Assembly (NCBI GenBank): GCA_009772895.1 | Contig: WOUP01000005.1 | Coordinates: forward strand, 124,001 to 188,000 | Origin: Puniceicoccaceae bacterium 5H | GTDB lineage: Bacteria; Verrucomicrobiota; Verrucomicrobiia; Opitutales; Oceanipulchritudinaceae | DNA length: 64,000 bases | Direction of reading: 5' to 3' | In this document: positions 28,039 to 30,702 of the stretch, piece by piece | Position numbering within the stretch: the first letter of the stretch is position 1 | How the letters are laid out: each line of letters starts with the position of its first letter | Position numbers and translations under genes: made by a program | The notes under the pieces: model-generated | What the model saw: the letters and a program-made list of their open reading frames with translations, nothing else | Database searches by the model: none | Told to the model about the DNA's origin: nothing

Positions 28039-29514
28039 ATGAATTACTCCATCGTCCTCCGCCTGCTCGGCACCATTGCGATCTCGATCTTTCTGGCCTT
28101 CCTGCTCAGCTGGGGCATGGCCTGGCTGCTCGACGACGGCAGCCACTGGGCCGGGCCGGCCCGCTGGGGCTTCGGCATCAGCTCGGCCATCGCCGGGGTG
28201 GTGGGCGTGGGCCTGCACATCCTGGGGCGGTCGGACAACAACAAGATGTTTCGCAAGGAGGCGCTGGCCACGATCGGCCTCGGCTGGATCTTCGCCAGCG
28301 TGCTCGGCGCCATCCCCTATTTTCTGATCATCGACGGCATCCCGTTTGCGGACTGCGTCTTCGAGGCCGCCTCCGGCTTCACCACCACTGGCGCCTCCGT
28401 GCTCTCCGACATCGAGCACCTGCCCCTGAGCCTGCTCTTCTGGCGCAGCCTCAGCCAATGGATCGGCGGCCTGGGCGTGGTGGTCTTCTTCGTGGCGCTG
28501 CTCAGCTTTCTCGGCGCGGGCGCCAAGGTGCTCTATTCGCGCGAGTCGAGCGCCCAGGCGGCCGACCTCGATGCCTCGCGCGTGCAACAAGGCGTGCTCA
28601 AGATCCTGTTGCTCTACCTCGGGCTCTCCGCGCTCTGCACGCTCGTCTACTGGCTCTGCGGGCTCAGCTGGTACGACTCGCTCAACCACATGTTCACGAC
28701 GCTGAGCACCGGCGGGTTCAGCACGCGCTCGACCAGCGTGGCCAGCTTCGACAACCCGGCCTTCGAGTGGGCGGTGATCCTGTTCATGACCATCGGCGGC
28801 GCCAGCTTTCTCGTCATCCTGCGCATGCTCAAGGGCGACTGGCACATGGTGCGCCGTTCGACCGAGATGAAGGCCTACCTCGCGATCATCGTCGGCGCAA
28901 CGGCCCTCGTCACGCTCTTCCTCTACGTTGGCCTCGATGCCACGACCTTTGAAAATACCGTGCGCGACGCCGCCTTCCAGGTCGTTTCGATCATGACGAC
29001 CACCGGCTATGCCACCAAGGACTACGATGCCTGGCTGCCGGCGACGCACATCATGTTGCTCGCCCTGATGGTGATCGGTGGCTGCTCGGGCTCGACCGCC
29101 GGCGGCATCAAGGTCATCCGACTCTGCGCGGCCTGGAAGATCGCCCGGCACCACGTGGAGCGCGCCTACCGGGCCCGCGTCGTGCGTCCGATGAAGATCA
29201 ACGACCAGAACCTCGACCAGAATACGCAGGAGTCGATCGTCGTCTTTCTCATGCAGATGAGCATGATCGTCATGGTCGCCAGCATCATCGTCGGCGTGCT
29301 CGAGCCCCAGCTCAGCGTGCCGGGCAACATCTCTGCTGTCGCGGCCACGCTCTTCAACATCGGCCCCGGGCTGGCGGAAGTCGGCCCCACGCGCAATTTC
29401 GCGTTTTTCCACAGCGGCACCAAGCTCTTCCTCTCGCTGCTGATGATTCTTGGTCGCCTCGAGCTCTACGCGGTCCTCGCCCTGTTTTCCCCCGCCCTCT
29501 GGAAGAAGTATTGA
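28039..29514 (+). CDS. trkH: Trk potassium uptake membrane protein TrkH
   Basis: 491 residues, about ten or more membrane helices. The four pore-loop repeats show the expected glycines, for example ASGFTTTGASVL near 110, TLSTGGFSTRST near 225, IMTTTGYATKDYD near 320 and NIGPGLAEVGPT near 440. It imports K+ together with TrkA. Followed by an unusually long repeat-filled gap rather than a simple terminator. Confidence 0.95.
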   Translation: MNYSIVLRLLGTIAISIFLAFLLSWGMAWLLDDGSHWAGPARWGFGISSAIAGVVGVGLHILGRSDNNKMFRKEALATIGLGWIFASVLGAIPYFLIIDGIPFADCVFEAASGFTTTGASVLSDIEHLPLSLLFWRSLSQWIGGLGVVVFFVALLSFLGAGAKVLYSRESSAQAADLDASRVQQGVLKILLLYLGLSALCTLVYWLCGLSWYDSLNHMFTTLSTGGFSTRSTSVASFDNPAFEWAVILFMTIGGASFLVILRMLKGDWHMVRRSTEMKAYLAIIVGATALVTLFLYVGLDATTFENTVRDAAFQVVSIMTTTGYATKDYDAWLPATHIMLLALMVIGGCSGSTAGGIKVIRLCAAWKIARHHVERAYRARVVRPMKINDQNLDQNTQESIVVFLMQMSMIVMVASIIVGVLEPQLSVPGNISAVAATLFNIGPGLAEVGPTRNFAFFHSGTKLFLSLLMILGRLELYAVLALFSPALWKKY

Positions 29515-29546
29515 GGCGCTGCGGTCAAACGCAGCGGACCACGATG

Positions 29547-29648
29547 GCACCCCTCCAGGGTGCGAAGCGGCGAGATTCCTCCCCCCGGTGGTGTCGGGCG
29601 CGGTTGCGCCCTCAACCACCGGCTACGCTATGTGACCCCTTCGGGGTT
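29547..29648 (+). repeat. Three-hairpin repeat, copy 1
   Basis: Hairpin A: GCACCC-CTCCA-GGGTGC (29547-29563). Hairpin B: CCGGTGGT...ACCACCGG (29585-29622), enclosing GGGCGC-GGTT-GCGCCC with 3-nt internal loops on each side. Then CTACGCTATG, and hairpin C: ACCCC/GGGGT with a TTC(G) loop (29635-29647). Bases 29585-29648 recur nearly unchanged in copy 2. Confidence 0.8.
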
Positions 29649-29773
29649 GAGGGCCAGATTACCATCTATGCGCGTGAGGAGCCACAAGGAACCGCTCCCG
29701 CGATTCACCGGCGCGCCAACCCCCGGCACTTCCAAGAAACGTTAAACGGGCACGAGGCGCCCCCACGGTGACG

Positions 29774-29872
29774 GCATCCCTTCTGGTGCGGATTTTACGC
29801 GGCTCTTTCCGGTGGTGTCGGGCGCGGTTGCGCCCTCAACCACCGGCTACAGGCTGTGACCCCTTCGGGGCC
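29774..29872 (+). repeat. Three-hairpin repeat, copy 2
   Basis: Hairpin A is GCATCC-CTTCT-GGTGC with one bulged base (29774-29789). Hairpin B (29809-29846) is identical to copy 1 over 38 bp. The spacer is changed (CTACAGGC), and hairpin C again has CCCC/GGGG. It lies 224 bp after copy 1 in the same orientation. Confidence 0.8.
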
Positions 29873-30103
29873 GGCGATCACACCATGCATGCACGGGAGC
29901 AGCTGCCGGTCAGGCACCGTCTCCAGACACGCCGTTGCCGTGATGCTCAGGCGCTCCCTTGAATGGCTTACGGAATCCGGGCGCAGGGGCCAACGCCAGA
30001 CTACATGATCCTTCGCCTGATCGGAGGCGTCAATCCGTGGCCATGCGGCTGCAGCAAACAAAGCGCGTCCCTCCGCCCGGCGACACGCGCCATATCTGGC
30101 CGT

Positions 30104-30202
30104 GCAAGCTGAAAGCTTGCCATAACGTAGCCGGTGGTCGAGTCCGCCTAGCGGACGATACCACCGGGACCGCCCGATGAAAGAAGCACCTTGGAGAGGT
30201 GC
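30104..30202 (-). repeat. Three-hairpin repeat, copy 3 (inverted, diverged, structure kept)
   Basis: Read on the minus strand: hairpin A GCACCT-CTCCA-AGGTGC (30202-30186). Hairpin B CCGGTGGT...ACCACCGG (30167-30131) encloses GTCCGC-TAG-GCGGAC. Then CTACGTTATG and hairpin C GCAAGC/GCTTGC (30120-30104). The stems differ in sequence from copies 1 and 2, but every change keeps pairing. Confidence 0.8.
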
Positions 30203-30248
30203 CAGAGCTCGCGCGACACCAACCTCCTCCGGATTTCCAACCGGACAA

Positions 30249-30283
30249 CAAAAAGCCCGAGCAGGGACTGACTGCTCAGGCTT
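30249..30283 (-). terminator. Rho-independent terminator after ferredoxin gene
   Basis: On the minus strand AAGCCTGAGCAG pairs with CTGCTCGGGCTT (one G-T pair) and is followed by a T run. Confidence 0.88.
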
Positions 30284-30317
30284 CCGTCGAATCTGATGTG
30301 AGTTTGGGCGCCTCGAC

Positions 30318-30554
30318 TTATTCGTCGCCGTCGTCGCCGATGGCCTCCACCGGACAACCTTCGAGAGCCTCCATGCAGAGGTCCATATCCTCTGGAGTCT
30401 TCGGCTGGTTGTAGACGTAGGAGTACCCACCGTCTTCGTTGCGCGTGAAGAAGTCGGGCGCAGTTTCGCGGCAAAGGTCGCAGTCGATGCATTGTTCATC
30501 GACGTAGAACTTGCCAGCAACGTTTTCGGGCCACTTGTCAGCTTTGTCCGCCAT
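30318..30554 (-). CDS. Ferredoxin, single [4Fe-4S]
   Basis: 78 residues from the ATG at 30554 (MADKADKWPENV); a TTG 33 bp upstream is less likely. Cluster ligands are CIDCDLC near residues 23-29 and the Cys of GCP near 68, one cluster rather than two. An extra Cys (DLCMEA) could form a disulphide, as in Bacillus-type single-cluster ferredoxins. It is acidic (EAIGDDGDE tail), as expected for a small electron carrier. Partner not evident; single-gene unit with its own terminator. Confidence 0.88.
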   Translation of the reverse strand: MADKADKWPENVAGKFYVDEQCIDCDLCRETAPDFFTRNEDGGYSYVYNQPKTPEDMDLCMEALEGCPVEAIGDDGDE

Positions 30555-30702
30555 ACTGCTTGCCAAGCTAGCAGGAAATTCACTCAAGTAAAGCCGCTTC
30601 GGGGCCCTTGCAGGATTCGGTTTGTTCGTGCAGTTGCTCGGACAAGTGCGTCCCTGTCTTGCACCCCGGTAGAGAATGTGCCTTAGTGGAGGCTTCCGAA
30701 CG

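Follow-up and report, generated by a model that had tools for sequence, protein, structure and literature searches.

Three copies of a hairpin-rich element between trkH and a ferredoxin gene of Puniceicoccaceae bacterium 5H are very probably solo units of REP/REPIN-type non-autonomous DNA repeats, spread most likely as single-stranded DNA by a Y1 transposase of subclass 1.2. The window (the whole stretch of 64,000 nucleotides analysed) holds all three inside one intergenic gap, which opens after the trkH stop at 29514 and ends at the ferredoxin gene (30318–30587, minus strand; Table 1). An earlier note had read three copies here in the order hairpin A, hairpin B, CTAC, hairpin C, and the sequence agrees with it, as it does for the arm changes reported between copies: CCC/GGG to CCT/AGG in hairpin A, GGGCGC/GCGCCC to GTCCGC/GCGGAC in hairpin B, and full replacement of ACCCC/GGGGT by GCAAGC/GCTTGC in hairpin C. 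Near identity of copies 1 and 2 holds over 62 nt of hairpins B and C (94%) but not for hairpins A and the linkers, which differ. The spacer CTACGyTATG is found in copies 1 and 3, while copy 2 reads CTACAGGCTGTG; and where the note proposed a test on "four copies", the window has three, the number that the note itself described. Copy 3 is inverted, as had been said, and its difference from the other two is that of two subtypes of one family, type I for copy 3 and type II for copies 1 and 2.

Table 1. Repeat copies and their parts in the trkH–ferredoxin gap (window coordinates)
Feature	Position	GTAG strand or match strand	Description and support
trkH–ferredoxin gap	29515–30317		803 bp, intergenic; holds all three copies
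Copy 1, type II	29547–29647 from sequence; 29541–29656 by R1	minus	Complete three-hairpin unit; R1 96.1 bits, E=1.1e-19 (G000:C25:153541-153656); single-stranded DNA fold z = −2.8
Copy 1 hairpin A	29547–29563		GCACCC-CTCCA-GGGTGC; sequence and DNA fold
Copy 1 hairpin B	29585–29622		GTAG-tagged REP core, 8-bp outer stem CCGGTGGT/ACCACCGG, inner stem GGGCGC/GCGCCC; sequence, pattern and DNA fold
Copy 1 GTAG tag (plus strand CTAC)	29623–29626	minus	5' foot of hairpin B; GTAG, CTAG or ATAG in 91/93 units
Copy 1 hairpin C	29635–29647		ACCCC-TTC-GGGGT; sequence and DNA fold
Copy 2, type II	29774–29870 from sequence; 29768–29880 by R1	minus	Three-hairpin unit; R1 87 bits, E=1.8e-17; single-stranded DNA fold z = −2.2
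Copy 2 hairpin A	29774–29789		Weak: GCATCC..GGTGC, one T-G pair
Copy 2 hairpin B	29809–29846		
Copy 2 CTAC	29847–29850		
Copy 2 hairpin C	29860–29870		
Copy 3, type I	30202–30104 from sequence; 30097–30208 by R1	plus	Three-hairpin unit; R1 91.8 bits, E=1.2e-18; single-stranded DNA fold z = −5.6
Copy 3 hairpin C	30104–30120		
Copy 3 GTAG	30127–30130		
Copy 3 hairpin B	30131–30167		
Copy 3 hairpin A	30186–30202		
RF01687 match, hairpins B and C of copy 3	30105–30167	minus	27.1 bits, E=7e-4, below gathering threshold 37

A dispersed family of three-hairpin units

On the GTAG strand each unit runs hairpin C, foot, (G)TAG, hairpin B, about 20 nt of linker and hairpin A. Hairpin B combines the 8-bp outer stem with a variable inner stem. 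Conservation across units starts ~30 nt before hairpin B, at hairpin C, and stops ~5 nt after hairpin A, which sets the unit at ~110 nt with all three hairpins included. A pattern for the hairpin B core matched 128 times in the bacterium's own genome and not once in the reversed control. The earlier note had expected a dispersed family, and a covariance model built from 91 units (R1) bears this out, recovering at least 150 full-length copies on 26 contigs, the weakest with E = 1.6e-6; a genome of the same genus (G001) has 72 copies. The tag at the 5' foot of hairpin B is GTAG in 51, CTAG in 22 and ATAG in 18 of 93 units, and its last three letters read TAG in all but one (92/93).

Covariation was assessed in the style of R-scape, with FastTree substitutions re-placed randomly along the branches in 100 replicates. 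Five of 5,995 column pairs reached E<0.05 in the 91 units, and four of these are base pairs, three in hairpin C and one in hairpin A (one of the hairpin C pairs is C-G 42, T-A 25 and A-T 24 times); compensatory change keeps the structure, as had been proposed from the window copies. Tested by alignment columns, the inner stem of hairpin B gave no significant covariation because its loop length varies. Counted inward from the stem, it covaries at pairs 2 and 3 only, where 28 and 29 of the 43 distinct stems have a Watson-Crick pair (expected 18.6 and 16.2). The loops of hairpins A and C are alike (GGA/GAA). Within a unit, the two hairpins also share their 3' foot in 42 of 84 cases, against a permuted mean of 23.3 and a maximum of 33. 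A TAG at a fixed offset 3' of hairpin A, as a second cleavage site would have it, was seen in at most 1 of 46 units at any offset from +4 to +20. The family stands at no fewer than 150 copies, with three DNA hairpins, beyond chance.

Units pair as inverted heterodimers

Neighbouring units within 500 bp of each other form 35 pairs that face one another with hairpin A, 32 of them across a gap of 17–20 nt. Another 43 pairs face with their C/GTAG sides, at gaps from 21 to 314, and only 7 neighbours stand in tandem. Each of the 21 A-facing pairs read from end to end combines a type I with a type II unit, with 104–111 nt from hairpin B to hairpin B and a recognisable common centre. Such an A-facing pair makes up a REPIN-like dimer that spans ~250 bp and contains six hairpins. 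Other genomes hold to a near-fixed hairpin B to hairpin B distance of their own (136–137 nt in four pairs of G238, for example), and the basic mobile-like unit is the inverted dimer of two three-hairpin units. The two subtypes usually partner in one dimer; the window copies are solo units, none of them in a dimer. Isolated units account for 30 of the 150 copies recovered by R1, others being without a former partner.

One 17.4-kb contig (G000:C27:1-17435, L034) is an unusually dense island, where over 30 units alternate in orientation and a single transposase gene is present. A match to 'Betaproteobacteria toxic sRNA' on it (L034:943-999) scored 30.5 bits against a gathering threshold of 50 and was taken as chance. 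Several contigs (C7, C10, C11, C21, C22, C32, C34 and C39) begin or end in a unit, so the assembly evidently breaks at these repeats.

Three transposase genes of subclass 1.2 type

The genome encodes exactly three Y1 (HUH-tyrosine) transposases. Two of the genes (C27:11369-11806 and C14:188-625) each occupy the middle of two units in inverted orientation, and hairpin B is 46–105 bp away. The third gene, on C2, is also surrounded by units with this layout, but their hairpin B is a different one (CCGGATGTC...GACTTCCGG). Such an arrangement conforms to the one-gene-one-REP pattern of REPtrons. The low-copy CCGGATGTC...GACTTCCGG family has five copies in the genome, three of them around the third transposase (G000:C2:174785-175721, L039); the single copies at C10:70227 and C18:80446 sit among copies of the main family.

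The proteins are 146–160 aa long and carry DHVH, WQ and Y---Q--HH. Across 32 such proteins, Y---Q--HH is present in 31, W93 and Q94 are invariant, and the Y---NP motif occurs in none. By their HUH, WQ and Y---Q--HH signature and a size of ~148 aa, the transposases are predicted members of TnpA_Y1 subclass 1.2. In the available part of the reference classification (Quentin 2018, PMC6006769), subclass 1.2 is defined by the Y---Q--HH signature, lacks IS200 ends, is entered as REP 'no', comes mostly from Cyanobacteria and Bacteroidetes, and is kept apart from mobile IS200.

Affinity to IS200/IS605 is evident in these proteins. The NCBIfam IS200/IS605 model matches all 32 (50–61 bits for the three own proteins), and in a structure prediction (pLDDT 88) the closest alignments are to ISDra2 and IS608 TnpA (Z 15–16.5, ISDra2 16.5), ahead of E. 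coli TnpA_REP (4er8, Z 10.1). The repeats could on these grounds be MITE-like offshoots of a standard IS200/IS605 element of subclass 1.1, an origin we regard as highly unlikely. Y---Q--HH is the mark of subclass 1.2, which the accessible portion of Quentin 2018 separates from mobile IS200; the second and third genes share only 51% and 53% identity with the first, not being multicopy, where an IS200/IS605 element is recognised by near-identical gene copies with subterminal hairpins; and GTAG-footed inverted REP dimers differ from IS200 ends.

The layout follows the transposase lineage

A scan of named genomes returned 33 related genes, mostly from Verrucomicrobia and Planctomycetes MAGs; a few are labelled Hydrogenedentota, Acidobacteriota, Armatimonadetes, Gammaproteobacteria or Bacteroidetes, and such labels on MAGs are not always correct. 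Many of the relatives' genes have inverted units of this layout on their flanks. In 123 flanks (200 nt) of 65 genes, a fixed detector found TAG-footed B hairpins 53 times and complete three-hairpin units 35 times, where dinucleotide shuffles gave 1.15 and 0.01; about half of the relatives' transposase flanks had no unit recognisable to the strict detector.

Classical RAYTs from the same phylum sample served as a control, with flanks of 350 nt. The 116 subclass 1.2 flanks of that length comprise 62 with hairpin B, 52 with hairpin C and 43 with full units, whereas the 48 classical RAYT flanks comprise 28 with a B-type hairpin and none with hairpin C or a full unit. The two sets differ in full units (43/116 versus 0/48, p=2.6e-8) and in hairpin C given hairpin B (52/62 versus 0/28, p=3e-15), although these p-values, like those that follow, are indicative only, the detectors having been written post hoc and the genomes not being independent. 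A subclass 1.2-type gene is present in 66 of 289 phylum genomes; the CCGGTGGT version of hairpin B occurs in 17, of which 16 have such a gene (p=1.6e-10), and in the other, G096, the pattern is present and no transposase was detected. The three-hairpin layout goes with the subclass 1.2 transposase lineage.

These counts bear on whether the elements are simply REPs of a classical RAYT (TnpA_REP, class 2) with incidental flanking hairpins. Hairpin B by itself matches the description of GTAG REPs, in which Opitutus terrae is rich, and classical RAYTs are common in the phylum (110/289 genomes). Our own genome has no classical RAYT, however; its three transposases score at most 19.8 bits or find no match on the REP-associated transposase model (cut-off 80), and hairpin C accompanies hairpin B beside subclass 1.2 genes but never beside classical ones, which leaves a classical RAYT origin improbable. 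The REP/RAYT-like mobility suggested in the earlier note is supported in kind, with a subclass 1.2 TnpA_Y1 as the partner in place of a classical RAYT.

Acido-Lenti-1 resembles part of the element

At gathering thresholds Rfam matched nothing in the window and, across 19 loci, tRNAs alone. A link to Acido-Lenti-1 (RF01687) appeared only at a relaxed E-value, with window copies at 27.1 and 17.6 bits and the gathering threshold of 37 not reached; the claim that no named family has this build has to be narrowed, since part of the motif matches Acido-Lenti-1, though below its threshold. The RF01687 consensus consists of a hairpin CCUAGCgC...GcGCUAGG, CUA, ~9 bases and a hairpin around CCUUCGG, which are hairpin B, the complement of the TAG tag, the foot and hairpin C of our element on the opposite strand. 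RF01687 matches lie on both flanks of transposase genes in two loci (L076 and L078). Ninety of the 289 phylum genomes have matches, 57 of the 289 above gathering; a transposase is present in 57 of the 90 versus 9 of the 199 others (p=3e-27), and 33 genomes have RF01687 matches and no detected transposase. Among the best 150 matches, 11 lie 47–165 bp from a transposase gene (~0.05 expected), and around 9 of 24 top-scoring loci hairpin A is present as well, at its usual spacing (0 in shuffles). Judged by structure, place and co-occurrence, Acido-Lenti-1 appears to be the hairpin B–hairpin C part of such DNA elements, read on the opposite strand.

Acido-Lenti-1 was itself proposed as a probable RNA, with no function given (Weinberg 2010, PMC2864571), and a 2026 paper treats it as a regulatory RNA and suggests control of nearby proteases (PMC13298647). 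The elements would then be structured RNAs whose hairpins act in transcripts, for instance as 3'-end stabilisers or regulators, and copy 1 does begin 33 bp past the trkH stop. Compensatory changes fit RNA and single-stranded DNA equally; they cannot separate the two and are therefore no proof of RNA. We consider an RNA role unlikely, because fixed inverted dimers, arrays, units at both ends of transposase genes and the phylum-wide co-occurrence are what a transposition substrate predicts. Terminator-like sites number three in the gap region (0.8 in shuffles), and a single one overlaps an element, at hairpin A of copy 3; intrinsic terminators were rejected as an explanation on this count. The genomic context favours a DNA element for Acido-Lenti-1. 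In another genome of the phylum, RF01687 matches stand in regular tandem, ~124 and 72 bp apart (G211:C1:1701174-1701838 and 769620-769882).

Proposed mechanism and related systems

The single-stranded DNA biochemistry of IS200/IS605 and TnpA_REP is established for IS608, ISDra2 and E. coli. By analogy with it, and with REP cleavage by TnpA_REP (PMC8266576), we infer that the elements may move as follows. The HUH and Tyr113 protein would bind hairpin B with its GTAG foot in single-stranded form, as on the lagging-strand template, and the tyrosine would cut next to the unit; the REPIN would then be excised or copied via a single-stranded intermediate and, with its ends joined, reach another intergenic position. 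Hairpins A and C might be docked by the same part of the protein or by a second subunit of a TnpA dimer, or might mark two cleavage sites; their alike loops and agreeing 3' feet suggest such a shared role, and this step is the weakest of the proposal. Solo units such as the window copies would be remnants or half-dimers. On balance we also favour, with less assurance than for the elements themselves, a separate lineage of REP transposases, in which subclass 1.2 TnpA proteins of Verrucomicrobia, Planctomycetes and other phyla have three-hairpin REPINs of their own and evolved separately from classical RAYTs, and in which Acido-Lenti-1 is part of these DNA elements and no RNA gene.

The elements work like REPINs with a RAYT; by tag and copy number they belong with the GTAG REPs, and by transposase class they do not belong with classical RAYT systems. 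Akin to the GTAG REPs and REPtrons described in the available text of Di Nocera 2013 (PMC3733652; O. terrae families included), they have a GTAG foot, a GC-rich palindrome, more than 100 copies, inverted HH dimers, clusters and a neighbouring Y1 transposase; unlike the REPs in that text, each REP here is flanked on either side by one more hairpin at a constant distance. REPINs with RAYT/TnpA_REP (Bertels and Rainey 2011, PMC3116915) likewise consist of two inverted REPs with a fixed centre and include flanked transposase genes, and the BIMEs of E. coli (Y/Z2 pairs) also pair two REP subtypes as heterodimers. Our elements differ from REPIN/RAYT systems in the class of transposase (no Y---NP, an IS200-like fold) and in a dimer of ~250 bp with six hairpins. 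The transposases share DH[VI]H, WQ, Y---Q--HH, a length of ~148 aa and low copy number with subclass 1.2 as given in the accessible part of PMC6006769; unlike the REP 'no' entry there, the genes here carry REP-like three-hairpin units and come from Verrucomicrobia and Planctomycetes. Acido-Lenti-1 (PMC2864571) has in common with the element hairpin B, CTA, a ~9-nt spacer, hairpin C with a CCTTCGG-type loop and a place beside transposase genes, but it is filed as RNA, without hairpin A and the dimer context, and the copies here fall below its gathering threshold.

In the available open-access full text we found no description of the three-hairpin unit, of its tie to subclass 1.2 or of the identity of Acido-Lenti-1; the O. 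terrae consensus sequences of PMC3733652 may include hairpin B. The elements supply a partner for a transposase subclass listed without one in the reference classification, and the hairpin architecture sets subclass 1.2 systems apart from classical RAYT systems. An Rfam RNA family without function since 2010 gains a testable identity. They also urge caution elsewhere, in that covariation in dispersed repeats may stem from single-stranded DNA transposition and not from RNA.

Occupied and short trkH–ferredoxin gaps

In a genome from another genus of the same family (G003), trkH and the ferredoxin gene are adjacent with ~76 bp between them, versus 803 bp in the window, and the gap is also short in G010; a pattern scan of the trkH–ferredoxin gap found no repeat in either. 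This repeat-free trkH gap belongs to another genus and not to a same-genus relative. In the same-genus G001 no border-exact empty site was found at the three sites tried (the trkH flank and two further loci), because G001 is rearranged at all three. Downstream of trkH in G001 (L093), two small ORFs stand in place of the trkH–ferredoxin neighbourhood; they resemble an inserted pair of genes, perhaps of toxin-antitoxin type.

A further arrangement lies upstream of a Bacteroidetes relative of the transposase, in a MAG labelled Arachidicoccus (L089:2912-2980). A C-like hairpin (ATGCTCC-ATA-GGAGCAT) is followed there by GGTAG, and an A-like hairpin (CGTTCC-TAA-GGAACG) is present with no hairpin B, perhaps representing a two-hairpin form.
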